From Bacteroidales bacterium UBA4284 (lineage in GTDB: Bacteria > Bacteroidota > Bacteroidia > Bacteroidales > UBA932): a stretch of DNA of 15,065 nucleotides. The translations under genes and the position numbers were made by a program. The stretch lies in NCBI GenBank assembly GCA_002395925.1, contig DGVM01000122.1:1-15065 (forward strand), written 5' to 3'. The notes under the pieces were generated by a model. It saw only the letters and a program-made list of their open reading frames with translations, was not told the DNA's origin and did not search any database. Shown here in pieces: positions 1 to 14,344 of the stretch. Numbering within the stretch: the stretch's first letter is position 1; every line of letters begins with the position of its first letter.

Positions 1-1308
1 TACGACATGGAGATGATCAAGGAGCTGGGCCACTGCTCGGGCATAGAGAACTACTCGCGCTATTTCGACGGGCGTGAGGCCGGCCAGAAGCCCTACTGTC
101 TGCTCGACTTCTTTCCGCGCGACTTTCTGCTTGTGGTGGACGAGAGCCATGTGAGCGTGCCGCAGATCAACGCCATGTACGGCGGCGACCGCGCCCGCAA
201 GCAGAATCTGGTGGAATACGGTTTCCGTCTGCCCGCCGCAAGCGACAACCGTCCCCTTAAATTCGATGAATTCGAGGCTTTGACGGGCCAGAGGGTCTAT
301 GTGAGCGCCACTCCCGCCGACTACGAGCTCGAAAAATCCGGCGGACTTGTAGTAGAACAGGTGGTGCGTCCCACCGGACTTCTCGATCCTCCCATAGAGG
401 TCCGTCCCATCGAAGGACAGGTCGATGACCTGGTAGAAGAGATACGCAAGCGCGCGGAAGTGGATGAACGGGTGCTGGTTACGACACTTACCAAACGTAT
501 GGCGGAAGAGCTCGACGAGTACCTGCGCCGCATAGGCGTGCGCGTACGTTACATCCACTCCGACGTGGATACTACCGAACGTGTCGAAATAATCGAGGAC
601 TTCAAGAACGGACTGTTCGACGTGCTTGTGGGTGTGAACCTGCTGCGCGAGGGGCTTGACATCCCCGCAGTCTCGCTGGTAGCCATACTCGATGCCGACA
701 AGGAGGGCTTCCTGCGTACCGGACGCGCCCTCACGCAGACAGCGGGACGCGCCGCCCGCAATGTCAACGGCCTTGTCATCATGTATGCCGACCACATCAC
801 TCCCTCAATGGAGCAGACCATACGCGAAACGGAGCGCAGACGCTCGCGCCAGATAGCCTACAACAAGGAACACGGCATAACCCCCAGGCAGATCGTGACT
901 CATTTCAATACTCTGGCGACGGAACTGAGCGGGGCCAAGCCCGTGACGGGAAAACTGGCCGGCGGCACCACGGGACGCATGTCTGCCGCAAATTCGTACG
1001 ACGCTCCGGTCTATATCCCCAATCCTTCCGATTACGGAAAGGGCACGGTGAGCGTAGGCTTCGGCCACGACGCCCTGCGGGAGAAAGGCGCCGCCTATTC
1101 GTCCGAAGGCTTCGTGCGGGCAGACCTGGCCGCCGTGCTGCAGGATCCTGTCATACGGTCTATGTCCCGCCCCCAGGTGGAGAAGATGATAGAAGAAGAC
1201 CGCGCCCGCATGAAAAAGTCCGCTGCCGAACTTGACTTTACGGCAGCAGCCCGCTTCCGCGACGAAATGTGGGCGCTCCAGCAGTACCTCAAGGTCTGGA
1301 AAGACTGA
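1..1308 (+). CDS. uvrB: UvrB, excinuclease ABC subunit B (5' end outside window)
   Basis: This is the C-terminal 435 residues of the UvrABC nucleotide-excision-repair helicase subunit, which takes over damaged DNA from UvrA and recruits UvrC. The frame is open from base 1, so the start codon lies upstream. Visible helicase motifs are DESH (motif II), YVSATP (motif III), [22 protein letters not shown] and QTAGRAARN (motif VI). The last ~40 residues form a UVR domain ([20 protein letters not shown]), which contacts UvrC. The linker between HGITP and the UVR domain is ~105 residues, clearly longer than in E. coli UvrB as I recall it, and is rich in Gly/Ser/Tyr. The stop is TGA at 1306-1308. I see no obvious intrinsic terminator directly after it. 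Identity is secure; the linker comparison is from memory. Confidence 0.97.
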
Positions 1309-1411
1309 CGTTGTTTGTGCCGCCACGACTGGTTTTGCGTTGTCTCACATACATTGCTTAGCGTTGCGTACCTGCATTGCTTTGGCGTCGGTGTAGCATC
1401 GGGCTCCCCAT

Positions 1412-1663
1412 CCCTTTCTGGATCAAAATTCCGCCAAAGTGATCCTGGCAGGGGAGTAGCGTGCCCTTGCTGGATCAAAATGCTATCAAAGTGATCCCGG
1501 CAGGGAAGTAGAGTGCCCTTGCTGGATCAAAACCCTGTCAAAGTGATCCTGGCTGGCATGTTGCGACCCTATGCAGGATCACTTTGGCCTCTGACTGATC
1601 CCAGAGCCCCCTTTCTTCAGCCTCGTTGGGATCACTTTGACCTCTGACGAATCCCGACAGGGA
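1412..1663. repeat. Array of five GGATC-bounded palindromic repeats (REP/BIME-like)
   Basis: Three near-identical 52-bp direct repeats start at 1412, 1464 and 1516. Each contains a 26-bp imperfect palindrome (1420-1445, 1472-1497, 1524-1549) that begins GGATCAAAA and ends CAAAGTGATCC. Two further 26-bp copies lie in opposite orientation at 1576-1601 and 1629-1654, each beginning GGATCACTTTG. Their reverse complements end in the same CAAAGTGATCC. Between the first palindromes are small stems (GCAGGG paired with CCCTTGC, one bulge) whose loops contain GTAG. The mixed orientation resembles mosaic REP clusters. No array-associated protein lies adjacent, but a RAYT gene starts ~710 bp downstream. 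Confidence 0.85.
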
Positions 1664-1671
1664 AGGGCATA

Positions 1672-1711
1672 AGGAATATGAGAGATCATAATCCTTTCAG
1701 TGTATATTCCT
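1672..1711. repeat. 8-bp inverted repeat AGGAATAT / ATATTCCT
   Basis: AGGAATAT at 1672-1679 is matched by ATATTCCT at 1704-1711, with a 24-base spacer. GGC and GCC lie just outside the arms. It marks the change from the GC-rich palindrome array to AT-rich DNA. There is no T-run, so it is not a clear terminator. It could be a relic of an element end. Confidence 0.4.
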
Positions 1712-1874
1712 CGCCATTCAAATGGACCTTGTGTGGACCTTAAAAATATGAAACTATATACATGTTGTCTATGAAATCCGCGTAAAAACTGAAACGAAAA
1801 AAAGTCCTAGACTTTATGCAATTTAACTCGTTATTGCCATATTTTGGCTTTTATAGATAATTATTAGCATTTGT

Positions 1875-2144
1875 ATGGATACGAAATCAATCGGACTAAA
1901 GTTAAAAGAACTAAACATCTCCCCGTCTTTATTATGTTGGGGCGACGATGTTGTATGTTGCACCGAGATTTGGTATGATGAGAACACCAATAGAATGTGT
2001 TCTGATTGCGGAGTCTCTGTTCATGTTGACGAACCTTTGAACATTGCCAAACTTATGATTGACATTGAGGTCGCTGTCCATGTTTATCTTAATCTGAGTA
2101 GAGTGACTGAGGGTCCGTTACGTGTACTCTTGGGCACAGTTTAG
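1875..2144 (+). CDS. Small hypothetical protein, 89 aa (doubtful)
   Basis: This open frame starts with ATG in AT-rich DNA and stops with TAG 10 bases before a long hairpin (2155-2189) that could act as its terminator. I do not recognise the product. The peptide is acidic, has five Cys including a CC pair and a CSDC motif, and shows no signal peptide or membrane segment. A loose Bacteroidota-like promoter match (TTTTGG near 1843, TAGCATTTG at 1865-1873) would put transcription start almost at the ATG, but the -7 box has one base too many. Codon use and composition differ from the neighbours. It may be a real accessory gene, a remnant, or a chance ORF. Confidence 0.35.
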   Translation: MDTKSIGLKLKELNISPSLLCWGDDVVCCTEIWYDENTNRMCSDCGVSVHVDEPLNIAKLMIDIEVAVHVYLNLSRVTEGPLRVLLGTV

Positions 2145-2154
2145 GGGCGTTATT

Positions 2155-2189
2155 GTGGCTGAAGGTCCAAGCGGCGGACCTTCAGCCAC
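2155..2189. repeat. Perfect 14-bp hairpin, left flank of RAYT unit
   Basis: GTGGCTGAAGGTCC (2155-2168), a 7-base loop (AAGCGGC), then the exact complement GGACCTTCAGCCAC (2176-2189). No T-run follows, so it is not a textbook terminator. It closely matches the hairpin at the 3' end of the RAYT gene (3226-3260): 12 of 14 bases in each arm, same loop length. One of the differences is a paired change (G-C to C-G). Confidence 0.85.
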
Positions 2190-2372
2190 GCTCACTTCAT
2201 AATACTCTGCAAAATAGCTTTGAATTAAGCGGAGTTGTTAGTAACTTGCCGGAAACATCGGGCTGCTGTGAAGAGGGCAGACGCTCCGGCCTGCTTCATC
2301 CGTGATTGCGGGCAACCAACGCTACTGCGGGAAGCCTGTTCTCCCTCAGCAGCTCCTAAACACCGATGAACT
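2190..2372 (+). other. Structured leader upstream of RAYT (possible RNA element)
   Basis: These 183 bases before the RAYT start code for nothing obvious but have strong pairing potential. GCTGCT (2262-2267) with GAGGG (2273-2277) can pair with CCCTC (2343-2347) and AGCAGC (2348-2353), closing a ~90-base domain. Inside it, GCAG (2277-2280) can pair with CTGC (2291-2294), and the stretch 2306-2332 contains GCGGGCAACC and CTACTGCGGGAAG. The closing stem ends 19 bases before the ATG. It could be a cis-regulatory RNA, a transposase recognition structure or a separate small RNA. I do not recognise a known family. Confidence 0.4.
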
Positions 2373-3233
2373 ATGAAATTCTATCTGTTAAGTACCAGTC
2401 CTTTAAAGGACCGGCTTTGGTTCCGTGACGATGCGGATTTCCAGGCCGCCATGAATTACGTCGCGGTTTCCGTCGCGGTTGTGCAGGGAGTCAATGTACT
2501 GGCGTTTATTCTGATGTCCAACCATGTGCATTTTGTTCTGGAGTGTACCTGGGAAAAGGCGCTCGAATTCATCACTCACTTCAAACGCCTGTATGGTGCC
2601 TATTTTGAGAGAAGGCATGGCGTACATGATTTACTCCGCAGGAATTCCGTGGACATAAGGGAAGTCCGGATTCAAGATGAATCCTTGCTTCGGGCGATTG
2701 CATACGTCATGGACAATCCCGTCGCGGCCAACATCTGCTTTCATCCTTCAAATTATCCCTGGGGTTGTGGAAATGTGTTATTTAATCCAGGCAAAGAACG
2801 GGGAACTGCGCTCGGGCAGTATTCCCAGAATAAGCGCAGGGTTCTGCTGAAGAGTAAGTCGCCCGTGAATCTGAACTGGGAGATAGGACGTGACGGGTAT
2901 GTACTTCCACATTCGTACATGCCGGTATCCTTTGTGGAATCGCTTTTCTGCAGTCCCAGACGCCTGACATATTTCATCACGACTTCTTCCAAGGCGAAGG
3001 CCAGGCTTGAAAAAGGTGCGGCACCTGCATTCCAGGATCAGCTGATCCTTGCTGCTGTCAAAAGCCTTTGCCAGTCTCTGTTCAGATGCAACGGCGTTTC
3101 GGAACTTCCGGAAACCGATTTGAGTTACCTGCTCAAAGACCTTCGCAGGCGGTTCAATTCTGACGTAAAACAGCTTGCCAGGGTTCTCGGGATGCCGTAC
3201 GAGTCTGTTGCAAACCTTATTGATCGTGCCTGA
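2373..3233 (+). CDS. REP-associated tyrosine transposase (RAYT, Y1/HUH family)
   Basis: This 286-residue protein belongs to the IS200-like Y1 transposases of the REP-associated type, which cut and join single-stranded DNA at hairpins. The HUH motif is H51-V-H53 in LMSNHVHFVLE, and the probable catalytic tyrosine is Y111 in AIAYVMDNPVAAN, matching the family pattern YxxxNPVxA. YPWG follows at 128-131, as is usual. The region after ~150 is an added C-terminal part ending in a helix-turn-helix-like segment (LARVLGMPYESVANLIDRA), which resembles DnaA-type DNA-binding tails of some RAYTs. ATG 2373 is the natural start, directly after the structured leader. The TGA stop lies inside the right-flank hairpin. 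Its GC-moderate composition and lone position suggest transfer. There are no IS200-style partner genes (no TnpB), which fits a RAYT rather than an autonomous IS. Confidence 0.88.
   Translation: MKFYLLSTSPLKDRLWFRDDADFQAAMNYVAVSVAVVQGVNVLAFILMSNHVHFVLECTWEKALEFITHFKRLYGAYFERRHGVHDLLRRNSVDIREVRIQDESLLRAIAYVMDNPVAANICFHPSNYPWGCGNVLFNPGKERGTALGQYSQNKRRVLLKSKSPVNLNWEIGRDGYVLPHSYMPVSFVESLFCSPRRLTYFITTSSKAKARLEKGAAPAFQDQLILAAVKSLCQSLFRCNGVSELPETDLSYLLKDLRRRFNSDVKQLARVLGMPYESVANLIDRA
3034..3049. repeat. 16-bp perfect palindrome inside RAYT gene
   Basis: AGGATCAGCTGATCCT is a perfect palindrome within the RAYT coding sequence. Its ends (GGATCA and TGATCC) are the same hexamers that bound most copies of the upstream array at 1412-1663, with only two bases between them. 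It may be chance, since GATC is short. Confidence 0.6.
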
Positions 3234-3268
3234 AAGTCCGGAGATTGGACCCTCAGGCACGATAATAA
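3217..3268. repeat. Long hairpin overlapping RAYT stop, right flank of unit
   Basis: The stem reads TTATT (3217-3221), bulged G, ATCGTGCCTGA (3223-3233), AA/CC mismatch, GTCC (3236-3239), a 7-base loop, GGAC (3247-3250), TCAGGCACGAT (3253-3263), AATAA (3264-3268). That is about 20 paired bases. The RAYT TGA stop is within the left arm. The core 3226-3260 is homologous to the hairpin at 2155-2189. It could also end transcription between the converging RAYT and purine nucleoside phosphorylase genes. Confidence 0.85.
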
Positions 3269-3337
3269 CCTTATTCTTTGTCTAATGGTACGTGGATTGG
3301 ACCGTTGGTCACGCCGATAGAATAACTTGAAGGATCC

Positions 3338-3359
3338 CGGAGGAAAGAATCGCCCTCCG
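3338..3359 (-). terminator. Possible terminator of purine nucleoside phosphorylase unit
   Basis: CGGAGG (3338-3343) and CCTCCG (3354-3359) form a 6-bp stem with a 10-base loop, starting 10 bases past the minus-strand stop at 3370. There is no U-tract, so termination is only a guess. Confidence 0.35.
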
Positions 3360-3369
3360 CTCAGGTTGC

Positions 3370-4197
3370 CTACAGCGCCTCGATCATCCGCCGGAACAGC
3401 TCGGACATCTGGTCGGCGGCGATGTCGGCCTGCTTGACTACGTCGTCGCCGTCGTTGAGATTGCGTTCTACGTTGAAGATGTTGGAGAAGTTGGTCACTA
3501 CCGACATGCCGAAGACGCGGATGCCGCAGTGGCGGGCCACTATTACTTCGGGAACCGTTGACATGCCGACCAGGTCGGCTCCGACTTCGTGGAAGAAACG
3601 AACTTCGGCAGGGGTCTCGTAGGTGGGGCCGGTGACTCCGAAGTACACGCCTTTTCTCAGGTTGACTCCCATCTCAATTCCCATTTTCTCGGCAAGCTCC
3701 TGGAGCTCAAGGTCGTAGGCGCAGGTCATGTCGGGGAAGCGGGGGCCGAAATCGTCGAGGTTGGGACCGATGAGCGGGTTTGGCATCATGTTGATGTGGT
3801 CCTTTATTATGACCAGGTTGCCTACCTTGTAGTCGGGATTGGTGCCGCCGGCCGCGTTGGACACGAAAAGGTACTCGATGCCGAGCAGTTTCATGACGCG
3901 TACTCCAATGGTGACGGTCTCCATGGGATAGCCCTCATAGTAGTGGAAACGCCCTTGCATCGCCACAACCTGCTTGCCTCCAAGGGTGCCGCAGATGATG
4001 TTGCCCTTATGGCCTACTGCGGTGGAGATGGGGAAGCCGGGGATGTCTTTGTAGGGTATGACGAGGGGATTCTCGATCTGCTCGCCGAGCTTCCCGAGTC
4101 CGCTGCCCAGGATGATGCCTATTTTGGGACGGGCGCCGCCGGAGCGTTCGCGTATGTGGGCGGCAGCAGCCTTGATGTTGTCGAGGTTGTTTGCCAT
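3370..4197 (-). CDS. punA: Purine nucleoside phosphorylase (trimeric, inosine/guanosine type)
   Basis: The 275-residue enzyme cleaves purine (deoxy)nucleosides with phosphate to the free base and (deoxy)ribose-1-phosphate, in cytosolic purine salvage. It matches the trimeric family end to end. GSGLGKL carries the phosphate-binding S32, H63 lies in AVGHKG, and GRFHYYEGY gives R83 and H85. Further on are SNAAGG (114-118), GPTYETPAE with the base-binding Glu, MSTVPE, and VTNFSN with the purine-contacting Asn. These positions fall almost exactly at the human enzyme's numbering. ATG 4197 is preceded by AGGAAG. It begins 6 bp after the stop of the PUR-domain gene, so the two are probably co-transcribed. 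A synonym symbol (deoD-type, pupG) is possible, but the sequence is not of the hexameric class. Confidence 0.95.
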
Positions 4198-4203
4198 GGC
4201 TTC

Positions 4204-4554
4204 CTATAGGTCTTCGAATTCTATTGCACTGTGCTCACCGGGTTCCCTCTGGGGAATCGTGCCTCCGAAGCAGTTGTTGGTTATGTAATCGATGACCTCG
4301 TCGAGCCCTTCGCGGAATTTGTCGAAGTCTTCTTTATAGAGGAAAATCTTATGCTTGTCGTAGGTGAAAGTTCCGTCGGGGTTGTTGCGGCGTTTGCTTT
4401 CTGTTATTGTGAGGAAGAAGTCCTTGCCTCCTTTTGTGGATTTAACATCAAAGAAGTAGGTACGCTTGCCTGCACGGACGGGTTTGGAAAAAACGTCCTC
4501 CGAATTGCGGTCCCCGTATGCGGGGGAGTCGTAATCATCTCTGTACATACACAA
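4204..4554 (-). CDS. PUR-domain DNA/RNA-binding protein (DUF3276)
   Basis: This small 116-residue protein is of the PUR (Pur-alpha-like) family common in Bacteroidota. The single PUR repeat spans roughly residues 20-95, with GKRTYFFDVKSTKGGKDFFLTITESKRR forming the first beta strands (27-56) and KIFLYKEDFDKFREGLDEVIDYI the strand-helix end (69-91). Related proteins bind single-stranded nucleic acid; the target here is unknown. ATG 4554 is used, but ATG 4548 (MYRDDYD) would also serve. A minus-strand -7 box lies at 4577-4584. It precedes the purine nucleoside phosphorylase gene by 6 bp and is divergent from nusB. Confidence 0.85.
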   Translation of the reverse strand: MCMYRDDYDSPAYGDRNSEDVFSKPVRAGKRTYFFDVKSTKGGKDFFLTITESKRRNNPDGTFTYDKHKIFLYKEDFDKFREGLDEVIDYITNNCFGGTIPQREPGEHSAIEFEDL

Positions 4555-4576
4555 TAAAAAATAATGTTAATTTCTA

Positions 4577-4584
4577 CAAAAATA
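4577..4584 (-). promoter_or_regulatory. Bacteroidota -7 box for PUR/phosphorylase unit
   Basis: The minus strand reads TATTTTTG, fitting TAnnTTTG. Predicted start near 4573 gives a ~20-base leader before ATG 4554. I see no clear -33 TTTG at the right spacing. Confidence 0.55.
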
Positions 4585-4607
4585 GGATTTATTTTCAGAT
4601 TCCGTGT

Positions 4608-4615
4608 TATCTTTG
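4608..4615 (+). promoter_or_regulatory. Bacteroidota -7 box for nusB operon
   Basis: TATCTTTG followed by C is an excellent match to TAnnTTTG. Predicted start near 4620 gives a leader of about 18 bases before ATG 4638. The -33 TTTG is not evident. The box decides that nusB starts at 4638 rather than at the in-frame upstream ATG 4518, which lies above the promoter. Confidence 0.7.
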
Positions 4616-4637
4616 CAGCAAAATTTGTTTGAAATCT

Positions 4638-5555
4638 ATGCTGAACAGAAGAATCCTCAGGATAAAGGCCTTCAAGGCAGTATATTCCAGAGTAGAGAAT
4701 CCTGCGATGACGCTCCCCGAGGCGACAGCCGAGCTGGAGCGCTCCTGTGAAGCCACGAGGGACCTGTACCTCCGCATGCTCGCCATAGTCGGCCCCCTTA
4801 CCAGGGAGGCCCGCGCACGCATCGACGCGGCCATGCATAAGTTCAACCCCAGCGAGGAAGAACTGCACCCCAATCTCAAGTTTGCCAACAATGCGATGGC
4901 AGCCGCCCTCGAAGAGGACCCCGACTTCTCCAAAATCATAAAAAAGAAAAAGATAAGCTGGGACAACGACGACGTCTTCCTGCGCAACCTTTACGAATCC
5001 ATCCGTTCCAAGGATTATTTCGCCAGGTACATGGAGACTCCCGGAACCTCCATCTCTGAAGACGCTGCGCTGTGGTGCCGCATTTTCGAGGAGGAATTCT
5101 CGGGCGTGGACGCCCTTGCCGACATCCTCGAAGACCTTTCCATCTACTGGAACGACGAGCTGGAATATGCCCTGAGCTGGTGCTGCCGTTCTGTGGAGCT
5201 GATTGGCAAAGGACGCCCCTGGACGCTTCCCGAGCTGTTCATGAGCGATATGCCCGGCGCTCCCGGGCGCGAGAGCGACAGAGCCTTCGTGAAGAACCTC
5301 GTGGGCACGGCGCTCCGCAACTATGACGACTACTACCGCAGAATCTCCGAGGTTACTCCCAAGTGGGATACAGGCCGCATATGCGCCACCGACCTTGCCC
5401 TCATAATCTGCGGCCTTGCCGAGGCCGACGCTTTCCCCGGCATCGACTACCGCACGACCATCAACGAATTCGTTGAGATTTCCAAATATTACAGCACCCC
5501 GGAAAGCCGGGCTTTCGTCAATGGCGTTCTCGATAAACTAATCAATAAAAAATAG
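4638..5555 (+). CDS. nusB: NusB family transcription antitermination factor (long form)
   Basis: The 305-residue protein carries the NusB RNA-binding fold in its C-terminal part (~residues 180-303), ending in TTINEFVEISKYYSTPESRAFVNGVLDKL by pattern, as in canonical NusB (INEAVELAK...FVNGVLD). NusB with NusE binds boxA RNA and promotes antitermination of rRNA operons. Canonical NusB is ~140 residues; this longer form with an extra helical N-terminal region (MLNRRILRIKAFKAVYS onward) is usual in Bacteroidota. I place the start at ATG 4638, just after the -7 box at 4608. An in-frame ATG at 4518 would add 40 Cys/Asn-rich residues and precede the promoter. It is the first gene of a six-gene operon, with yajC 2 bp downstream. 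Confidence 0.88.
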   Translation: MLNRRILRIKAFKAVYSRVENPAMTLPEATAELERSCEATRDLYLRMLAIVGPLTREARARIDAAMHKFNPSEEELHPNLKFANNAMAAALEEDPDFSKIIKKKKISWDNDDVFLRNLYESIRSKDYFARYMETPGTSISEDAALWCRIFEEEFSGVDALADILEDLSIYWNDELEYALSWCCRSVELIGKGRPWTLPELFMSDMPGAPGRESDRAFVKNLVGTALRNYDDYYRRISEVTPKWDTGRICATDLALIICGLAEADAFPGIDYRTTINEFVEISKYYSTPESRAFVNGVLDKLINKK

Positions 5556-5557
5556 TT

Positions 5558-5923
5558 ATGACTTTTCTGACACTTCTCCAGGCGGCTGCTCCCGCCGCAG
5601 GTAAGGCCGGCCAGCAGGGCGGCGGACTCAGCATGTGGATCATGCTCATTCTCATTTTCGTAGTGATGTGGCTCTTCATGATCCGTCCTCAGCGCCAGCA
5701 GCAGAAAAAAATGGAAGAATTCCGCAAGTCCCTCAAGAAAGGCGACAAGGTCGTCACCGCAGGCGGCATATATGGCACCATAGCCGAGGTCTCCGAGTCC
5801 GAAAGGACCGTGCTCCTCAAGGTTGACGGTGATGTGAAACTGCGTGTCGACAAGGCTTCCCTCCAGAAAGATTTCAGCGAAACCGAGGCTCCCCAGCCCC
5901 AGCAGCCCGCCGAAAAGAAATAA
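5558..5923 (+). CDS. yajC: YajC, Sec translocon accessory subunit
   Basis: This 121-residue membrane protein is an accessory of the SecDF-YajC complex in protein export. It has a short Ala/Gly-rich N-terminus, one transmembrane segment at about 26-43 (MWIMLILIFVVMWLFMI), the family signature RPQRQQQKKMEEFRKSL right after it, and then the small beta domain KGDKVVTAGGIYGTI. The C-terminal tail is Glu/Pro/Gln-rich and ends in KK. Length fits the family. The ATG is 2 bp after the nusB stop and the next gene follows after 6 bp, so it is within the operon. Confidence 0.95.
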   Translation: MTFLTLLQAAAPAAGKAGQQGGGLSMWIMLILIFVVMWLFMIRPQRQQQKKMEEFRKSLKKGDKVVTAGGIYGTIAEVSESERTVLLKVDGDVKLRVDKASLQKDFSETEAPQPQQPAEKK

Positions 5924-5929
5924 CAAACC

Positions 5930-6862
5930 TTGAAGCGCTGGACTCAGTTCCTTCTCTGCCTGCTGCTCTCTGCCAGCGTGTGGCTGATCCATAACCTCTC
6001 CCAAAGATATTCGGGAGCGGTTACTGTTTCAGTGCTTGCAAAGAGCTCTCTCAAGGGAAGGGCTGTGAATGCGTCAGAAGCGGTTACGATAAATGCGCGC
6101 TGCAACGCCACCGGTTTCCGCTTGCTCGGCATCCGTCATTCCAACCGGGATGTGCCCGTAACCATAAATCCCGAGGACTTCTCGTACGACCCTTCGGACG
6201 ACAAGTTTACGGTCACGGCCGCCAATCTTGCCAAGTACGCGTCCAATATTTTTGGCGAAGGCGTTTCGCTCGAGACATTCCTCAACCAGAGCTACAGCTT
6301 CTCATTCCCAAAGGAAAACTTCCGCACCGTTCCGGTGAAGCCCGTCGTAAACGCAAGCTTCAAGCCGCAGTACATGCCCACCGGTCCCATGCGTATCCAG
6401 CCCGACTCCGTTGTCGTATATGGCACCCAAGACCAGCTGGAGAGCATCGATGACGTAGTCACCCGGCCCATCACCATCAACGACGCCGGCAAGAACGTGA
6501 GCGGAGTGAGCCGTATCGTGCCCGTGAGCGGAGTGCGTATCTCCGATACCGAGGTCACCTGGTCGCTGGATGTTGTGCGCTATGTCGAACAGCGCAGCGA
6601 GGTCCATATCGCGGTCCGCGGCGCTCCGGCGGGAGTAAAGCTTTCCGTTTTCCCGTCAAAGGCCGAGGCGGTCTTCTTCAGCCGTTTCCCGGCCAAGGGC
6701 AATCCGGCCGACGTGTGCGAGTTCTATGTCGATTATGCCGAGTTCTCGAATTCCGTCTCCGGGACTTGCGTGGTGCATTGTGCCAATCTCCCTCAGGGGG
6801 TGATCGACTGGAGTCTCGACCCTGCCATTGTCGATTGTCTTGAAATGGAGGACGCCGAATGA
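5930..6862 (+). CDS. YbbR-like domain membrane-anchored protein
   Basis: The 310-residue protein has an N-terminal signal-anchor (residues 7-21, FLLCLLLSASVWLIH) followed by extracytoplasmic beta-rich repeats of the YbbR type. The clearest is around 110-170 (FRTVPVKPVVNASFKPQYMP, then DSVVVYGTQDQLESIDDVVTRPI). YbbR repeats in Firmicutes CdaR regulate the diadenylate cyclase CdaA, but in Bacteroidota the partner is not established and no cdaA is in the window. Start: TTG 5930 is the only usable start codon, because yajC's TAA is in the same frame 9 bases upstream and no in-frame ATG follows for more than 100 codons. Its TGA overlaps coaE's ATG (ATGA), indicating translational coupling. Confidence 0.82.
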   Translation: MKRWTQFLLCLLLSASVWLIHNLSQRYSGAVTVSVLAKSSLKGRAVNASEAVTINARCNATGFRLLGIRHSNRDVPVTINPEDFSYDPSDDKFTVTAANLAKYASNIFGEGVSLETFLNQSYSFSFPKENFRTVPVKPVVNASFKPQYMPTGPMRIQPDSVVVYGTQDQLESIDDVVTRPITINDAGKNVSGVSRIVPVSGVRISDTEVTWSLDVVRYVEQRSEVHIAVRGAPAGVKLSVFPSKAEAVFFSRFPAKGNPADVCEFYVDYAEFSNSVSGTCVVHCANLPQGVIDWSLDPAIVDCLEMEDAE

Positions 6863-7380
6863 CCACCGTTCTGGTTACAGGTCCGATAGGGGGCGGCAAG
6901 TCAACGGCGTGCCGGTATCTGCAAGCTCTCGGCTGGCCGGTTTACGACTGTGACTCCCGCTGCAAAAGGCTTTATGAAACCGTACCCGGGCTCAAAGGAC
7001 GTATCGAGGCCGAACTCGGCATTCCCTTCTCCAATCTTCGTGAAGTCTTCGGCGATGCGCAGAAACTGGAAAAGCTCGAGTCCATTGTATATCCGCTTCT
7101 GGTGCGCGACATAGAGTCCTGGAAGCAGTCGCTCGACAGCCCTCTGGCTTTTGTGGAGTCGGCTCTTGCCGGCGAGAAGCCGCAGTTTGACGGTCTCTAC
7201 GACAAAGTGCTTCTGATAACCGCACCTCTGGAACAACGCATGGAGAGAAATCCGTACGCCCGGCAACGGGACTCTCTGCAGTCATTCCGGCGCGTCAAAC
7301 CCGACCGTACGATAAGAAACGTCTCCACGGTGGAGGCACTTGAACGAAAAATAGTAAATTACCTGAAAACAATATCATGA
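6859..7380 (+). CDS. coaE: Dephospho-CoA kinase (short, divergent)
   Basis: It catalyses the last step of coenzyme A synthesis, ATP-dependent phosphorylation of the 3'-OH of dephospho-CoA. The P-loop GPIGGGKST is at 8-16, followed by D30-C-D32 (usual DxD) and the VYPLL motif after the HP-like segment. At 173 residues it is shorter than most family members (~195-205). Some usual residues differ: the strand normally ending in DIPLLFE reads FVESALAGE, and the conserved Gln after the lid arginines is not visible in RQRDSLQSFRRVKPD. Position after ybbR in the operon supports the call. It overlaps both neighbours through ATGA. It is probably functional, but a shift in catalytic residues deserves a check. 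Confidence 0.87.
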   Translation: MTTVLVTGPIGGGKSTACRYLQALGWPVYDCDSRCKRLYETVPGLKGRIEAELGIPFSNLREVFGDAQKLEKLESIVYPLLVRDIESWKQSLDSPLAFVESALAGEKPQFDGLYDKVLLITAPLEQRMERNPYARQRDSLQSFRRVKPDRTIRNVSTVEALERKIVNYLKTIS

Positions 7381-7808
7381 AAACCGATCTGGCAAAGATT
7401 ATGTCCGTTTCCGGACAGCACGGACTGTTCCGCTACCTGGCCCAGTCCCGCACCGGCGTCATCGCCGAATCCCTTTCCGACGGCAAGCGTACCGCATTCG
7501 ACGCACACAGCCGCATATCCACCCTTTCCGACATAGCCATCTATACCTCAGAAGGCGAGATGAAGCTCGCGGAGGTCTTTACAGCCATGAAGAAAGCTGC
7601 CGACGAGGGACTCGAAGTTCCTTCCGCAAAGGCATCCCAGGCTGGTGTGACGGCATTTTTCGGCAAGGCCGTGCCCAACTACGACGCCGACCGTTTCTAC
7701 TATTCCCACATGAAGAAAGTCCTCGACTGGTACGACGATATCGCAAAGCATGCATCTTTCGATTTCGTAACCGACGAGGAGCGTGAGGCCGAAGTTGAAG
7801 AAGCTTAA
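7377..7808 (+). CDS. DUF5606 family protein
   Basis: This 143-residue soluble protein has the start MKTDLAKIMSVSGQHGLFRY, which is typical of the Bacteroidota DUF5606 family. There is a beta-rich N-terminal half with GKRTAFDAHSRISTLSDIAIY, then a helical C-terminal part and an acidic tail (TDEEREAEVEEA). The function is not known to me. ATGA overlap with coaE and a 26-bp overlap (or 14 bp if the later start is used) with rimO suggest strict co-expression. The family's constant neighbourhood with coaE, yajC and nusB is the main functional hint. Confidence 0.8.
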   Translation: MKTDLAKIMSVSGQHGLFRYLAQSRTGVIAESLSDGKRTAFDAHSRISTLSDIAIYTSEGEMKLAEVFTAMKKAADEGLEVPSAKASQAGVTAFFGKAVPNYDADRFYYSHMKKVLDWYDDIAKHASFDFVTDEEREAEVEEA

Positions 7809-9081
7809 GGTCATAACTCTCGGTTGTTCCAAGAACAACGTGGATACCGAACATCTTCTGGCGGCACTGCCGCCGGAAGATTTCCGGTTGCAGGGCGACG
7901 GCCCTCTGGACTATCTGCTCTTCAATACCTGCGGCTTCATAGGAGACGCCAAGGAAGAATCCATCCAGGCCATTCTCGAGGGCGTAGAGGCCAAAAAGAG
8001 GGGCGAGACCTCACAGGTCGTCGTTTTCGGATGCCTGTCCCAGCGCTATGCCTCCGAGATGCCCCGCCTGATTCCCGAGGTCGATGCCTGGTTCGGAGCG
8101 AGGGACCTGGGCCCCGTGCTCGAGTATCTTGGCGTTCCTCCCCGGGCGCGCTACGTCAGCCGCATCCAGGAGCACCCGTGCGGATACGCATACCTCAAGA
8201 TTTCCGAAGGATGCGACCGCCGCTGCTCCTACTGCGCCATACCCTTCATAAGGGGAGCCCACCGTTCCGTTCCGATGGAGGATCTGGTGGAAGAAGCCTC
8301 CCGGCTTGCCGCCGAAGGCGTAAGCGAACTCATCATCATCGCCCAGGACACCACCTTCTACGGACTCGACCTTTACGGACGCCGTGCCCTGGCGGAACTC
8401 CTGCAGCGCCTGTCGGATGTGGAGGGGATAAGGCGCCTGCGCATCCATTATTCTTATCCGGCCGATTTTCCCGATGACGTGCTCGACCAGATGGCGCTCA
8501 ATCCCAAGATCTGCCGCTATATGGACATTCCCCTTCAGCATATCTCCGACGTCGTCCTTTCCAATATGCACCGCCATATCGACGGCGCAGCGACGCGCGC
8601 CCTTATAGAGAGGATGCGCACCAAGGTCCCCGGAGTCGTCCTGCGTACCACGATGATAGTCGGCCACCCCGGTGAGGGGCCTCAGGAATTCGCCGAGCTG
8701 CTGGATTTTGTGCGGCAGGCCCGCTTCGAGCGCCTTGGGGCATTCTGCTACTCCGAAGAAGAGGGCACCTGGGGCGGCGAGCACCTTGACGACAACGTGC
8801 CGGAGGACGAAAAACACCGCCGGCTGGACGAACTCATGTCACTCCAGGCATCCGTCTCGCTGGAATACAACCGTTCCAGGATTGGCAGCGAACTTGAGGT
8901 GATGGTAGATGCGCACCGCGGCGAAGACGTGCTGGTGTGCCGCAGTGAGTTCGAAAGCCCCGAAGTTGACGGTGAAATACTCGTAACTACAAAAAGAGCC
9001 GCACAGATAGCTGTGGGCTCTTATATCAGGGTCAGGATAACCGGTGCCGACGAATACGACCTAACGGCGGTTGAGCTCTGA
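7783..9081 (+). CDS. rimO: RimO, ribosomal protein S12 methylthiotransferase
   Basis: This radical-SAM enzyme adds a methylthio group to an aspartate of ribosomal protein S12. The N-terminal MTTase domain has the auxiliary 4Fe-4S cysteines C15 (LGCSKN), C50 (NTCGFI) and C84 (FGCLSQ). The radical-SAM motif EGCDRRCSYCAIP gives C144, C148 and C151. A C-terminal TRAM domain covers about 368-432. The motifs TLGCSKNNVDTEHL, FIRGAHRS and PLQHISD separate it from MiaB. The start is GTG 7783; TTG 7795 (MKKLKVITLGCS) is equally plausible. It is the last gene of the operon, and its last 21 bases overlap the 3' end of convergent glpC. Confidence 0.96.
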   Translation: MRPKLKKLKVITLGCSKNNVDTEHLLAALPPEDFRLQGDGPLDYLLFNTCGFIGDAKEESIQAILEGVEAKKRGETSQVVVFGCLSQRYASEMPRLIPEVDAWFGARDLGPVLEYLGVPPRARYVSRIQEHPCGYAYLKISEGCDRRCSYCAIPFIRGAHRSVPMEDLVEEASRLAAEGVSELIIIAQDTTFYGLDLYGRRALAELLQRLSDVEGIRRLRIHYSYPADFPDDVLDQMALNPKICRYMDIPLQHISDVVLSNMHRHIDGAATRALIERMRTKVPGVVLRTTMIVGHPGEGPQEFAELLDFVRQARFERLGAFCYSEEEGTWGGEHLDDNVPEDEKHRRLDELMSLQASVSLEYNRSRIGSELEVMVDAHRGEDVLVCRSEFESPEVDGEILVTTKRAAQIAVGSYIRVRITGADEYDLTAVEL

Positions 9082-10299
9082 GGTCTTTTCCAGGTCGAGC
9101 GCCTCGGCAAGTATGCTCACCGGGTTCTTGACAGTCACGCCGGTACTCATCTCTATCTGCCACTTGCAGGTTTCGCATTCGCAGGCTACGAAGTCTGCGG
9201 CTGCTTCCGCAATGTCGTCAAAGAGCTGGCTTCCTATCTTCTGTGAAACCTTGAAATTCTCTTTCTTGAATCCGTAGGTTCCTGCGATTCCGCAGCAGTT
9301 GCTTGGCAGCTCTATGAGGGTCAGGCCGGGAATCATCTTGAGCAGCTCGATAGTAAATATGCCCAGTCCGAGCCTCTCCTGGTGGCAGGGGCAGTGATAT
9401 GCCGCACGCGCCTTCCAGCCTTCTTTCCATACGGGCTTGAACTCTCCGGAGGCGATGGCCTTATAGAGGTAAGGCTCAACCAGGCTGATGTGGCCGCGGA
9501 CGTCGGAGTTATCGACCTTGAGCAGCTCCGGATACTCTTCCAGAAGCGTCATGGTGCAGGTGGTTGAGACGGTCAGGATGTCCAGCCCCTTTGCCACCGA
9601 AGCGCGGAAAGCCTGGATATTGTGACGGGCGTCGCGGGTAGCCGCGGGAATCATGCCGTTGGCTATTTTTGCGACCCCGCAGCAACGTTCGTCAAGCAGC
9701 TGTACTCCCACTCCGAAGGCGTTGAGGACGGATACGAAATCCTGGCCCAGCCTGGGATAGTTGAAGTTGGCATAGCAACCGTGGAAGTAGCTTATCTGAC
9801 GCTTGAACGCCTGCTGGGAGGCCTGTGCGTTCTTCTTGAACCACTGTACGAAAGTGGTGCCGGAGTACTTGGGCAGCGTGCGGCGGTGGTCGATGCCGAG
9901 TGCGAAATCGAGTACGCCCTTGACCGGCGAGAGCCCGAGTGCAAAGTTGGCGACGGGGGCGAAGGCGCTGGCCAGAGGTCCTACCTGGTCGGTGCTGGCG
10001 AGCATGACGTCCCTGAGCTTGGGGGCCTTACGCGAATATTCGATGCGTGCCTGCTGGATGAGGTCGCCAATGCGCACGCCCGACGGGCACGCTACCTCGC
10101 ACCTCTTGCAGTTGAGGCAGTATTTAAGTGAATCTTCGAAGAAAATGCCGTTTTTTAGGCGGTAACGTTCCCCGTCCGGGCCGGAACGCTTGGGGCCTGC
10201 GTAATCGGGGTTGTTGGCCATTACGGGACATACTGTCTCGCAGAGCGAGCACTTCTGGCACTGCTCGAAATTGCCGTAGCTTATGTTTTGCTCCTGCAT
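9061..10299 (-). CDS. glpC: GlpC, anaerobic glycerol-3-phosphate dehydrogenase Fe-S subunit
   Basis: The 412-residue iron-sulfur subunit is thought to link GlpAB to the membrane quinone pool. Two 4Fe-4S ferredoxin motifs lie at the N-terminus: C14, C17, C20, C24 (CQKCSLCETVCP) and C61, C64, C67, C71 (CLNCKRCEVACP). Two CCG domains follow, with DERCCGVAKI and LPSNCCGIAGTYG. I use ATG 10299, whose A is shared with the glpB stop (TGATG); a GTG one codon upstream (10302) is also in frame. It is the last gene of glpABC. Its stop at 9061-9063 lies within the end of rimO, leaving no space for a terminator between the convergent operons. Confidence 0.95.
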   Translation of the reverse strand: MQEQNISYGNFEQCQKCSLCETVCPVMANNPDYAGPKRSGPDGERYRLKNGIFFEDSLKYCLNCKRCEVACPSGVRIGDLIQQARIEYSRKAPKLRDVMLASTDQVGPLASAFAPVANFALGLSPVKGVLDFALGIDHRRTLPKYSGTTFVQWFKKNAQASQQAFKRQISYFHGCYANFNYPRLGQDFVSVLNAFGVGVQLLDERCCGVAKIANGMIPAATRDARHNIQAFRASVAKGLDILTVSTTCTMTLLEEYPELLKVDNSDVRGHISLVEPYLYKAIASGEFKPVWKEGWKARAAYHCPCHQERLGLGIFTIELLKMIPGLTLIELPSNCCGIAGTYGFKKENFKVSQKIGSQLFDDIAEAAADFVACECETCKWQIEMSTGVTVKNPVSILAEALDLEKTSELNRR

Positions 10300-10880
10300 C
10301 ACCTTGTCCTCCTTACCGCGTCCGCGGCTGCGAGCGCGCTTTGAATTATCTGTTCCGATCCGCCGGGCCTTGCGCCGCTGATGCCTGCAAGCACTTCGCC
10401 GGCGGGGAATAGGTTCTCAATCTTGACGCCGTCCTTGACCGCGCAACCGTCAATGCATTCGATTCCGAAATCCAGGAATGGCTGGGAAGCGCCGAAGCTG
10501 GGGTTGAACCAGTGTGAACGGTCGCTGTCGTATTTGACGTCGAGTCCGAATACCGGTTCGTACAGCCTGTCCATGTCGGCTACGATGCCGCACGAGAAGT
10601 ATTTTCCGCTTGCCAGTACGAAGCTGTCGGCCGAGAGGTCGAGGTCTCCGAGTTTTTCGGTGCGGATGCTGACGAGTCTGTTTCCGTCGAATCTGCCGCT
10701 GCAGACGCGGTCTCCTGCAAGGATGGAGCCTCCTTCCTGCCGGAACTCGTCCCTGGGGGCTTCGCTGAGCGAAAGCCCTTCGGCAATCATGGCACACCTG
10801 AGCCCCGATTTCTGCAGTGCGGTGGCCGCTGTTACTCCTGCGAGGCCTCCGCCTATAATGATAACGTCAAACTTCATCAT
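10299..10880 (-). CDS. glpB: GlpB-like subunit, compact form lacking the middle
   Basis: At 193 residues it is less than half of E. coli GlpB (~419, from memory). It starts with a Rossmann motif (MKFDVIIIGGGLAGVTAATALQK by pattern; GGGLAG at 10-15), as GlpB does. After MIAEGLSLSEAPRDEFRQ it jumps to what corresponds to the family's C-terminal third: ADSFVLASGKYFSCGIVAD, EPVFGLDV, IENLFPAGEVLAGI, GGSEQIIQSALAAADAVR. About 220 central residues seem absent. There is no sign of a broken frame: its start overlaps the end of glpA (14 bp; ATG 10880, or ATG 10877 one codon later) and its stop overlaps glpC's ATG. It is therefore probably a working short subunit. An alternative is an old in-frame deletion with loss of activity. 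Confidence 0.82.
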   Translation of the reverse strand: MMKFDVIIIGGGLAGVTAATALQKSGLRCAMIAEGLSLSEAPRDEFRQEGGSILAGDRVCSGRFDGNRLVSIRTEKLGDLDLSADSFVLASGKYFSCGIVADMDRLYEPVFGLDVKYDSDRSHWFNPSFGASQPFLDFGIECIDGCAVKDGVKIENLFPAGEVLAGISGARPGGSEQIIQSALAAADAVRRTR

Positions 10881-12495
10881 AGGAGTACGGTTTTTGGACT
10901 TTGTAAACCCTTTGCATGAATTCCATCTCTCTGAGGGTGTCGCCCCATCCTGCGGGACACATGCCCTTCCAGCGCTCGTCGAGATAATCGGCGGCGAGGC
11001 TGTCGGCCAGCGAAGGGTCGCCAAGGGCCTGGGCAAGGGCTTTTGCTGCCTTGCGTATGCAGAAAGTGCCCTGGCAGGTTCCCATGCCGAGGCGGGTGCG
11101 GCGGCGCAGGTCGGAAAGGGTGCGGACTCCGAGTTCCGCCACTGCGTATTTTATTTCTCCGAGGGTGACGTTCTCGCATTCGCATACGAGAGTGCAGTCC
11201 TCCGGATTGTCGAAGCGGATTTTGCCGGCAAGGTCGCCCTGACGTCCGGCGGCGCCTTTCTGGCCTGCTCCGGGCTTGCCGGGGAAACGCTTGATGACGG
11301 AAGAGATGCGTCCGTCGGCCGATCCGGGAAGTGGAGTCTCGGCGGTCTTGCAACTGACGTTTACCGAAAGCTTGCGGCAGACTGCGTCGGTGGCCAGTTC
11401 GGCCATGAGACGGTAGGTCATGAGCTTGCCTCCGATTATGGAGATGAGGCCGTCGATGCCGTCGCGCGTCTTGTGGTCCAGCAACACTATTCCGCGGCTG
11501 ATGCTGCGCCCGGTAGGGTCGTCGTCGCTGGCTACGAGCGGACGTACGCCGGCGTAGGCGCGCAGTATCCTGGTGCTTGCGAGCGAAGGGCAGAGTGCGC
11601 ATCCCTCGCGCAGCAGCAGGCTTACTTCTTCGGGGGTGACGGTCATGTGGTCGCACTCCTCGAATGGAATCCTGGTCGAAGTTGTTCCGATAACGGTGAC
11701 GGTGTCGCCGGGAACCAGGATGTCGCCGTCCGCAGACTTGCGGCAGCGGTTGATGACCGTGTTGTTCACCCTGTGGCCGAATACCAGCAGCGCCCCTTTT
11801 GCGGGGTACATGCCGATTGTGATGCCTGCCATTGCCGCAAGCCCCTGGCTCCAGATGCCTGCAGCGATGACGGTCACGTGTGCATGATATTCTGCGGCGA
11901 GCCCCGTGCGGGTGTCGAGCACCTTGACTCCGGTGACGGTGTTGCCGTCCATGAGGTAGCCGGTGACTTTGGTGTAGGTGAGTATCGTGGCTCCGTGAAT
12001 GGCTGCGTCGGTGATGTTTGCGCTGCACAGGCGGAAGGGGTCCACCGAACCGTCGGGAACCTTAACCGCACCTATGAGCCTGGGATTTACGGAAGGCTCG
12101 ATCTTGATGGCCTCCTCGGGAGTGATGGCGCAGGCTTCGATCCCGGCGTGGTTGCAGGCCTCTACGAATTTCTCCTGATAGTCGAGCCCGTAGCCGGATT
12201 CGGCGTCTTCGGGGAGGGTTATGAAAAGGCCTCCTGTATCTTCTATGCAGTTTGATGCGATGGAGCGGAGAATGCGGTTTTCCCTTATGCATTCTTCTGC
12301 GGATTCGCTGTCCTTGACGGCGTAGCGGGCTCCTGAGTGAAGCAGGCCGTGGTTGCGTCCCGAGGCGCCCGTAGCGATGTCTTCGCGTTCTACGAGAAGA
12401 ACCCGAAGGCCGCGCATGGCGCAGTCCCTTGCCGTTCCGGCTCCGGTTGCTCCTCCGCCGATGACGATAACGTCGAAGTCTTTGGTGTTGACCAT
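10867..12495 (-). CDS. glpA: GlpA, anaerobic glycerol-3-phosphate dehydrogenase catalytic subunit
   Basis: The 542-residue FAD enzyme oxidises sn-glycerol-3-phosphate to dihydroxyacetone phosphate in anaerobic respiration. The dinucleotide-binding motif GGGATGAGTARD begins at 13, and E36 ends the second strand. GASGRNHGLLHSGARYAV (43-60) is the family signature near the flavin. A C-terminal BFD-like [2Fe-2S] domain has C438, C440, C474 and C479 (CECENVT ... CQGTFC); this domain distinguishes GlpA from aerobic GlpD. ATG 12495 lies only ~16 bases after the rnpB T-run on the same strand, so its own promoter must lie inside rnpB, or it is expressed by readthrough. It is the first gene of glpABC. 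No glycerol facilitator, kinase or regulator gene is in view. Confidence 0.96.
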   Translation of the reverse strand: MVNTKDFDVIVIGGGATGAGTARDCAMRGLRVLLVEREDIATGASGRNHGLLHSGARYAVKDSESAEECIRENRILRSIASNCIEDTGGLFITLPEDAESGYGLDYQEKFVEACNHAGIEACAITPEEAIKIEPSVNPRLIGAVKVPDGSVDPFRLCSANITDAAIHGATILTYTKVTGYLMDGNTVTGVKVLDTRTGLAAEYHAHVTVIAAGIWSQGLAAMAGITIGMYPAKGALLVFGHRVNNTVINRCRKSADGDILVPGDTVTVIGTTSTRIPFEECDHMTVTPEEVSLLLREGCALCPSLASTRILRAYAGVRPLVASDDDPTGRSISRGIVLLDHKTRDGIDGLISIIGGKLMTYRLMAELATDAVCRKLSVNVSCKTAETPLPGSADGRISSVIKRFPGKPGAGQKGAAGRQGDLAGKIRFDNPEDCTLVCECENVTLGEIKYAVAELGVRTLSDLRRRTRLGMGTCQGTFCIRKAAKALAQALGDPSLADSLAADYLDERWKGMCPAGWGDTLREMEFMQRVYKVQKPYSYDEV

Positions 12496-12511
12496 ATGCG
12501 GTAGTTATTAT

Positions 12512-12544
12512 AAAAAAAAGGCGGAACCGTAAGCCGGTTTCTGT
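12512..12544 (-). terminator. Terminator at 3' end of RNase P RNA
   Basis: On the minus strand the RNA ends with AACCG, loop GCTTA, CGGTT, CCGCC, and then a run of eight T (12512-12519). The T-run is clear. The short local stem competes with the P1 helix made with the 5' end. It lies immediately before glpA. Confidence 0.5.
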
Positions 12545-12829
12545 TTTAGTCTGCCATTTATCTACGCAACCTACCCCCCGGCATCAGGCGGGCCGCCCTC
12601 GACTGCCGGTATATTTGGTCTTGCAGACCCTGGTGCCGTACCCGCCCGGTATCGCTATCGTGCGTCGTGAGCTCTTGCCTCGCGTTTTCACCCTTTCCGC
12701 AGAATATGCGGTGGTTATTTTCTGTTACGGCTGGCGTAAGGTTACCCCCACCTGCGCTTTCCGCAGCAGGGCGCCCTGTTCTGTCCGGACTTTCCTCGGC
12801 ATTGCTGCCGCGACAGACCGTTCCGCCTT
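12520..12829 (-). ncRNA. rnpB: RNase P RNA (class A)
   Basis: This is the catalytic RNA of RNase P, which matures the 5' ends of tRNAs. Read on the minus strand it contains the universal elements in order. GAGGAAAGTCC (12787-12797) is near the 5' end. GTAGATAAATGGC (12553-12565) and ACAGAAA (12538-12544) followed by CCGGCTTAC are near the 3' end. The 5' GGCGGAAC and 3' GTTCCGCC pair as helix P1, fixing the ends at about 12829 and 12520. GGGGGGTAGG near 12580 could supply the L15 contact for tRNA CCA. At ~310 nt it is on the short side. The reading frames across it (for example 12615-12890 on +) are chance. Confidence 0.95.
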
Positions 12830-12841
12830 AATTCTTTCATG

Positions 12842-12849
12842 CAAAAATA
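12842..12849 (-). promoter_or_regulatory. -7 box of rnpB
   Basis: The minus strand reads TATTTTTG (TAnnTTTG). Predicted start is 12835-12838, a few bases ahead of the P1 helix. The region where its -33 box would sit overlaps the opposing promoter at 12862. Confidence 0.6.
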
Positions 12850-12861
12850 AGCATTTTTCTG

Positions 12862-12869
12862 TATATTTG
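12862..12869 (+). promoter_or_regulatory. -7 box of HTH gene
   Basis: TATATTTG followed by C matches TAnnTTTG. Predicted transcription start is 12873-12876, at the GTG start codon itself, so the mRNA would be leaderless or nearly so. Confidence 0.6.
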
Positions 12870-12873
12870 CCAC

Positions 12874-13233
12874 GTGTTGACAGACAATAGACTCAAGATA
12901 TTCGTAGCCCTGGCCCAGGCGGGCGGTTTTACAGAAGCTGCAAGGCGCCTTGGCATCAGCCAGCCTGCCGTGAGCCAGTGTGCGACGCAGCTGGAGGCCG
13001 AGGCCGGTGCTCAGCTGCTTATACGCGGCCGCGCCGAAGTGTCGCTCACACCCCTTGGCGAGCGTTTCCTCTACCATGCCCTCCGCATACTGGCGGAGTA
13101 CGAATCCCTGGGGCGAGAAATGGCTGGTGAACCGGCTGCTCCGGAACAGGTCGAAATACCGGTCTCAGAGAAACTTACGGCTATTGTCGGCACCGAAAGC
13201 GGAAATATCACGATCTCTTTTAAAAGCAAATAA
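12874..13233 (+). CDS. Stand-alone LysR-type winged-HTH protein
   Basis: The 119 residues consist of a LysR-family DNA-binding domain. A winged HTH spans 5-62 (LKIFVALAQAGGFTEAARRL, then GISQPAVSQCATQLEAEAG with the recognition helix, and the LTPLGERFL wing end). It continues into the linker helix to ~85. The ~200-residue effector-binding domain is missing; a 34-residue tail takes its place. The domain also resembles the ModE N-terminus. The start is GTG 12874 (TTG 12877 is also possible), 4 bases after the -7 box. The stop is 9 bp before the porin promoter box. It may regulate the downstream porin-pot genes or rnpB/glp; this is only inferred from position. No frame remnant of an effector domain follows, so it is not a fresh truncation. 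Confidence 0.8.
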   Translation: MLTDNRLKIFVALAQAGGFTEAARRLGISQPAVSQCATQLEAEAGAQLLIRGRAEVSLTPLGERFLYHALRILAEYESLGREMAGEPAAPEQVEIPVSEKLTAIVGTESGNITISFKSK

Positions 13234-13242
13234 TTTTTTTAG

Positions 13243-13250
13243 TATCTTTG
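13243..13250 (+). promoter_or_regulatory. -7 box for porin-potA operon
   Basis: TATCTTTG followed by C fits TAnnTTTG. Predicted start near 13254 gives a leader of ~34 bases before ATG 13288. The upstream A/T-rich stretch (TTTTTTT at 13234-13240) has no clean -33 TTTG. An out-of-frame ATG at 13278 opens a 26-codon upstream ORF overlapping the porin start. Confidence 0.65.
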
Positions 13251-13287
13251 CGCCCAAGTTTAACTAAAATTATCTTTATGAGTAGAG

Positions 13288-14343
13288 ATGAAGAAACTGC
13301 TTTTATTCTCCGCAGCTATGCTGCTATGCTCCCTTGCGCATTCGCAAGAGGCTGAGGAAACCGGCAGATATGCCGAGTTTCAGTTGATTCCGCGAATCGA
13401 TTTCAATCCTTATTACGGTCTGGACAACGGCGGTGACGCATCGAGCGGATTCGGGTACACATTCGGCAACACTTCAATCTACACTGTTCTGGAAGGTGCT
13501 TTCTCTGAGCACGTTTCATTTACCTTGAGCAATCATTGGGTCAGCGCAAACCAGCTTGACTGGGGAGAGACCGCCGGCCTGTACACTTCTACATTCTATT
13601 CCAATACAAACAACTGGCTCGACGTCCTCACCTTCGACTTCTCCTTCGGCGACTGGACATTCACCCTCGGCAAGGACAGCATCCTTACCGGTGGCTACGA
13701 ATTCGGCGAGTGGGATTTCGACTGTGACGAACTTTTCGTCGCCGACGACAAAATCCTTTACGGCTCCTATCTCTGGTACAATCTTCCCGCGTACCAGTGG
13801 GGCGCCAAGGTGGCTTATAGTCCTTCTGAGCGTACCACGCTCTACCTCCAGATGACTACATCTCCTTTCGGTGAGCGCCCGTTCGCCAGCGGACTGTTCT
13901 GCTATTCCGGCATGCTCGAGGGCAGCTACGGTCCTTACTCCAACATGTGGTCGGCATCTGCGATCCAGCGTCTCGACGGCGGCTTCGAGTGGCTCGTAGC
14001 CCTCGCCAACCAGGTGGAGTTCGCCGACGACTTCGTCTTCGGCTTCGACTGGTACAACTGCGTGGACATCGATTACTTCGAGGATGTCCCCATCGAGCTC
14101 ATAAAGGGCAACACCTTCCGTCCCAGCCTCGCATGGGCGCCCTCCGAAACCTTCAACTGCAAGCTCGTGACCAACATCTATTCCCGGGCCAGGCAGCTGT
14201 ATGACCTCAATGTGGCGGCGGCGTTCCACTATCGTCCCCTGGAATTCCTCCAGGCTCATGCTACCGTCGGATACGACGTCATGACGAAAAGCATTGCCGC
14301 CATGGTCGGCGTAAAGGCAAACATCAAGCTCTTCAGTTTGTAG
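13288..14343 (+). CDS. Acidic outer-membrane porin-like beta-barrel protein
   Basis: This 351-residue secreted protein has a type I signal peptide ([19 protein letters not shown], cut after S19). The mature part alternates aromatic/hydrophobic strands with Gly/Asn/Asp turns throughout (for example [35 protein letters not shown]), as expected for a transmembrane beta-barrel. By my count it has about 41 Asp/Glu against 17 Lys/Arg, with acidic clusters at 138-154 and 260-270. No lipobox or TonB box is visible. It ends in LFSL, so the usual C-terminal aromatic residue is not last. The stop is 1 bp before potA's ATG, which links it to polyamine transport. I infer a cation-favouring channel feeding PotABCD; the exact porin family is not recognised. 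Confidence 0.72.
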
Positions 14344-14344
14344 A

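Follow-up and report, generated by a model that had tools for sequence, protein, structure and literature searches.

A RAYT-like gene between hairpin doublets in Bacteroidales: a probable REPtron-like locus

Results

We analyzed a 15,065-nucleotide stretch of Bacteroidales bacterium UBA4284 (contig DGVM01000122.1, positions 1 to 15,065; hereafter the window), in which a RAYT-like HUH/Y1 transposase gene lies within the 2,061 bp between the convergent genes uvrB and PNP (purine-nucleoside phosphorylase) and is bracketed by hairpins (Table 1). An initial annotation had described two hairpins, at 2155–2189 and 3226–3260, that share 12 of 14 bases in each arm and have differing 7-nt loops, and had proposed 2155–3260 as a self-contained unit. 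The two hairpins are as described: a scan for 14+7+14 hairpins over 15,030 window positions returned at least 12 of 14 pairs at these two positions only, the second of which (the core of the downstream inner hairpin) has 12/14 pairs and the loop GGAGATT; 12 of 14 positions are identical in each arm, and the stem is GTGSCTGARRGTCC. The proposed unit proved too short, with two outer hairpins, exactly 52 bp outside the inner ones and at the same offset as in relatives, having been missed. Nine pairs are reached at 49 of the 15,030 positions, and adding at least 10/14 one-arm identity to the left hairpin leaves only these four hairpins. Each side of the RAYT gene is therefore a doublet with a decayed outer member, and the whole unit is a gene between hairpin doublets, spanning about 2103–3312. 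With its outer doublet members decayed and its reading frame open, the window copy may be ageing.

Table 1. Features of the window
Feature	Position	Strand	Description
Degenerate outer hairpin, upstream doublet	2103–2137		14+7+14, 9/14 pairs; 5' arm 12/14 identical to inner hairpin
Spacer between the two upstream hairpins	2138–2154		AGTTTAGGGGCGTTATT; by eye like doublet spacers of two related genomes (G001 and G002)
Inner upstream hairpin	2155–2189		14/14 Watson–Crick pairs; loop AAGCGGC (7 nt)
RAYT-like HUH/Y1 transposase gene	2373–3233	+	286 aa; HUH 51–53, Y111, SS 205–206, helical C-terminal part
Inner downstream hairpin	3223–3263		17-nt arms; two plus-strand A.C mismatches; holds RAYT stop codon
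Degenerate outer hairpin, downstream doublet	3278–3312		14+7+14, 9/14 pairs; one arm 10/14 identical to left hairpin
Bacterial RNase P class A RNA	12514–12829	-	E 2e-61

Three pairs differ between the left and right inner hairpins, one compensated and two broken on the plus strand. At arm position 4 a G-C pair on the left is a C-G pair on the right, the compensatory swap that had been reported correctly; the A.C mismatches at positions 9 and 10 of the right hairpin, G.T wobbles when read on the minus strand, had been omitted. Because two other pairs are broken, this lone change is weak evidence by itself that structure was retained, and it is the relatives, described below, that bear out pairing kept while sequence changes. 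The right hairpin had also been extended to about 20 bp, and the gene end equated with the element end. The TGA stop (3231–3233) does fall inside this hairpin, but this does not hold generally: among relatives, the start of the first hairpin downstream ranges from roughly the stop codon itself to about 60 bp or more beyond it.

The stretch 2090–2380, hairpin included, folds stably (z -3.4). Following up the idea of a conserved 5' untranslated region, blastn of 1309–2102, 2190–2372 (from the upstream hairpin up to where the RAYT begins) and 3264–3369 against the related loci fetched so far gave no match.

The predicted fold of the protein is of the TnpA_REP type, with 4er8 as the nearest solved fold, and together with the HUH and Y motifs it supports the earlier identification of the gene as RAYT-like. 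H51, H53, Y111 and N115 are invariant in 81/81 aligned sequences, as are S205 and S206, which probably represent the SS motif of TnpA_Y1 subclass 2.1 and of the TIRYT literature. Position 52 varies among V, L, I and F, and N115 is followed by P in 25 of the 81 sequences (including the window), S in 29 and C in 27. The Y motif of this clade reads YV..N[PSC]VAAN. The alignment has no conserved W[EQ] motif, which is linked to reading of the GTAG guide, between the HUH and Y motifs. All 36 of 36 alignment members match the NCBIfam RAYT model NF047646 at E <= 0.01, and the Pfam Y1_Tnp match (E 0.028) is below cut-off. No relatives were confirmed in IMG/VR.

Hairpins at related loci

We compared the window with the best 80 of 392 relatives found in genome contigs, all from Bacteroidales metagenome-assembled genomes (MAGs) of unstated completeness, many with titles that point to ruminant stomachs. 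Among the 79 of these 81 loci with complete flanks, a qualifying hairpin lies upstream in 49, downstream in 59 and on both sides in 39, compared with 12.9%, 11.0% and 1.5%, respectively, of background windows of equal size. In the set used for hairpin geometry, 29/78 loci reach at least 11/14 pairs on both sides. Successive hairpins on the same side are 51–53 bp apart in 54 of 65 cases, and a looser threshold, for which there is no background count, yields 73 doublets in 51/81 loci, with doublets on both sides in 19. Most listed spacers consist, by eye, of an A/T run, a G/C-rich core and a second A/T run; in the 11 loci with spacers that could be oriented on both flanks, the doublets point in the same direction in all but one (10/11; L041 is the exception).

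That a RAYT has its own hairpin family, as had been suggested for the window, is a tendency visible across these loci. Stem likeness averages 0.776 within a locus and 0.482 between loci, the observed mean was reached in none of 10,000 permutations, and the best stem match is the locus's own downstream hairpin in 24/39 loci. A Mantel test over 62 loci gave r 0.249 (0/2000 permutations), with relatedness uncontrolled. Three loci of one assembly (L001, L014 and L045) carry different stems.

Among four closer paralogs, one has doublets on both sides (L170), one on one side (L171) and one a single hairpin (L166). Of distant RAYT-like paralogs in G001, G002 and G006, 0/9 have nearby hairpins 51–53 bp apart, several of these matches being partial and their flanks approximate. 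One distant paralog in G002 (L164:2050–3300) has an identical 62-nt imperfect hairpin on each side, unlike the doublets.

Dispersed doublets in relatives

The initial annotation had suggested looking for scattered hairpins in related genomes, and these exist. The stem of locus L002, searched with a free loop and up to three mismatches, has 23 copies in its own genome, G002 (17 without mismatch; 4 at the RAYT), and none in five other genomes; a reversed control pattern gave 0 matches. For the window-like stem, G001 has 21 copies (4 at the RAYT), G003 has 6 (3) and G004 has 4 (1), with 0 in G002, G005 and G006 and one reversed-control match, in G002. Those copies of the L002 stem that the fetched loci of G002 cover pair up into ten doublets, whose members are 51 bp apart and enclose a similar spacer running in either direction. 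By crude stop-to-stop calls, nine of the ten overlap no predicted open reading frame, and the tenth, which flanks the RAYT, overlaps just a stop-to-stop frame. What repeats in relatives is the doublet without the gene.

The G002 stems are 97% identical, a conservation that, like the window-like stem searches, is partly ascertained by the search pattern, whereas the 5-nt loops are 26.6% identical, against 27.1% for random loops, and 20 of 23 are distinct. Across 20 of the 23 hairpins, five pairs beyond the searched core are paired in 88/100 cells, against a maximum of 85 in 5000 shuffles, which do not control for the few recurring arm types; the covarying replacements are A-T/C-G and C-G/T-A. 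This covariation is structural evidence beyond the single compensatory change in the window. Hypervariable loops were considered as a novelty and dropped, since the loops of the E. coli REP consensus are variable too.

The pattern of the window hairpin, searched in 151 genomes of the genus, matched in 12, eight of them singletons, and a reversed control gave 1–2 matches in 17 genomes. Against those singletons and control matches, only G011 (10 copies) and G042 (12), perhaps also G129 (3) and G070 (2), stand out. Unlike the G002 copies, several of those in G042 have a loop in common and some are close to the very start of a contig; they look like a recent amplification or a piece of a longer repeat.

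If the hairpins were the ends of an ordinary insertion sequence of the IS200/IS605 type, the whole 1.2-kb unit would transpose. The dispersal of hairpins without the gene speaks against this. Moreover, in ten assemblies with 2–3 fetched RAYT loci each, RAYTs of one assembly are only 48–62% identical, so the near-identical gene copies of insertion-sequence-like multiplication are not seen, although such copies could be collapsed in MAGs or fall outside the best 80. We regard this explanation as improbable.

The hairpins might instead be host elements, terminators or protein-binding sites, that the RAYT gene adjoins by chance. Their intergenic position in G002 (9 of 10 doublets) would suit such a role, conserved stems with unconserved loops fit continued selection at each site, and a stretch of four T comes after some G002 hairpins, making terminator activity possible. 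Yet stem sequence tracks the RAYT locus and not only the host genome, as the three differing loci of one assembly illustrate, and two of the nine intergenic G002 doublets lie between divergent genes (again on crude calls). A consensus terminator scan made no call at 2155–2189, at 3223–3263 or at the L082 doublet. Ordinary terminators were rejected as the principal explanation because stems follow the RAYT locus and that scan calls none of these hairpins, the four-T runs in G002 notwithstanding; a chance association with host elements in general seems to us very improbable.

The uvrB–PNP site

Relatives without the unit between the same two genes, for which the initial annotation had also suggested looking, were found. 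G010 and G005 are the closest relatives both in PNP (91% for G010) and in a tree of four genes. In G010 the uvrB and PNP stop codons are 2 bp apart with nothing in between; this genome does carry a RAYT elsewhere, with a different hairpin. In G005, uvrB is reversed and starts directly behind PNP, with no RAYT in between. The two genes are about 10 bp apart in G114 and within roughly 60 bp in G052 and G028; the gap is about 0.7 kb in G053, where it holds another reading frame, and in G116 uvrB was not found within the fetched stretch.

A RAYT 65% identical to that of the window also follows uvrB in G001, where the PNP–rimO block has the inverse orientation. G001 and the window do not group as sisters in the tree; the RAYT may therefore have been present ancestrally, with later losses, or may have been inserted separately in each. 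The doublet behind PNP in G001 repeats both loops of the doublet downstream of the RAYT, so that doublets stand at both ends of the inversion (L154:7930–15500), sharing loop sequences. This suggests that the inversion arose by recombination between doublets.

Other features of the window

Five palindromic repeats (TGGATCA...TGATCC) with variable centres lie at 1412–1655, spaced 52–54 bp, about the period of the RAYT doublets. A search of the 151 genus genomes gave a single weak match only; they are possibly repeats of a second RAYT family. The RNase P RNA (Table 1) is the sole match in an Rfam scan of the window at E <= 1.

Discussion

We consider it likely that the window holds a REPtron-like RAYT locus whose hairpin doublets resemble REPINs without the canonical GT[AG]G tag. 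The anatomy of the unit, its locus-specific stems, the dispersed doublets in relatives and the pair covariation are observed directly, and the catalytic motifs, the predicted fold and the relatives without the unit at the same site add to this basis. From these we infer that the RAYT binds and cleaves the hairpins, that doublets are mobile in trans and that further copies are scattered through the genome to which the window belongs.

Several results weigh against this interpretation. The window protein scores 31.1 bits with NF047646, for which the cut-off is 80. A qualifying hairpin is missing on at least one side at 40/79 loci, five loci (L024, L027, L028, L042 and L055) have none at the listing threshold, and neither does the close paralog L169 carry hairpins. 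GT[AG]G occurs within the 20-nt arms of 15/90 hairpins (78 loci), as against 24% of shuffled arms, and so is not enriched, although the left window hairpin begins GTGG. The window hairpin pattern is absent from the near relatives G005 and G010, and G011 has its ten hairpin copies, yet the hairpin of its closest RAYT, among those found, is another one. Finally, about 0.8 kb of other DNA lies upstream of the unit in the uvrB–PNP gap, and the product of precise insertion or excision and the exact element ends are accordingly not established.

The locus shares features with several known systems. As in E. coli-type REPtrons (REP with RAYT/TnpA_REP), an HUH/Y1 protein is flanked on either side by cognate hairpins, which have stems specific to the family and further copies dispersed between genes; the nearest solved fold of the protein is 4er8. 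Unlike in those systems, GT[AG]G is unenriched, there is no conserved W between the HUH and Y motifs, and the protein has an extra C-terminal helical part, at about 286 aa compared with a median of 165 in subclass 2.2 (PMC6006769). REPINs are likewise intergenic, RAYT-associated doublets that form the repeated unit (PMC3116915). In them, however, two inverted REPs together form a long hairpin, with a spacing of 71 bp (GI) or 110 bp (GII) (PMC3116915), whereas each doublet member here is a hairpin by itself, 51–53 bp from the other centre to centre.

Length, SS motif and a possible C-terminal helix-turn-helix make the protein lean towards TnpA_Y1 subclass 2.1 and the TIRYTs of TIRtrons, which share the NHVH and SS motifs and the longer C-terminus (PMC3733652, PMC6006769). 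TIRs can be self-complementary, may occur as dimers and may be repeated to a moderate degree (PMC3733652), and for subclass 2.1 no REP-like sequences are reported (PMC6006769). The locus differs in that the upstream spacer of the window does not match GGGGWSAS and the stems are locus-specific. TnpA_Y1 subclass 2.6 is also from Bacteroidetes and has atypical hairpins without GTAG, with copies elsewhere in the genome, but its median length is 179 aa and its Y motif YIH[QN]NP (PMC6006769), in contrast to about 286 aa and the motif of this clade. The titles and abstract openings surveyed do not name this Bacteroidales doublet family, which is no proof of its absence from the literature.

In the REPtron-like locus that we favor, the HUH/Y1 protein is a RAYT from a clade of Bacteroidales, and its gene lies between hairpins of a family of its own. 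We envision this protein as reading the sequence of the stem, not the loop, in single-stranded DNA, and as nicking and rejoining there. Its putative substrate would be the roughly 90–100-bp doublet, built as hairpin, A/T-G/C-A/T spacer and hairpin with centres 51–53 bp apart, which the RAYT would spread or maintain in trans between genes. The RAYT gene itself would remain single for each hairpin family and diverge along with its hairpins.

Constant stems with random loops are hard to obtain through neutral decay alone and point to ongoing selection on the copies, to active lineages under constraint or to active homogenization. One unlikely form of the last is that the RAYT maintains doublets and does not only copy them, repeated nicking and rejoining replacing or converting stems in place. 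If so, stems would stay identical at scattered sites as loops drift to randomness, and the RAYT would be a sequence-homogenizing enzyme, its recognition code evolving together with its stems.

The way in which RAYTs spread REP repeats, and the reasons why they persist, are open questions in the field. With dozens of RAYTs, different stems, a recurrent doublet geometry and several RAYTs per genome, this clade offers a natural set in which to study the recognition code between HUH enzyme and hairpin and to ask whether the doublet is the mobile unit. The doublets would, in addition, provide a REP-like partner for RAYTs that resemble a subclass reported without REPs.
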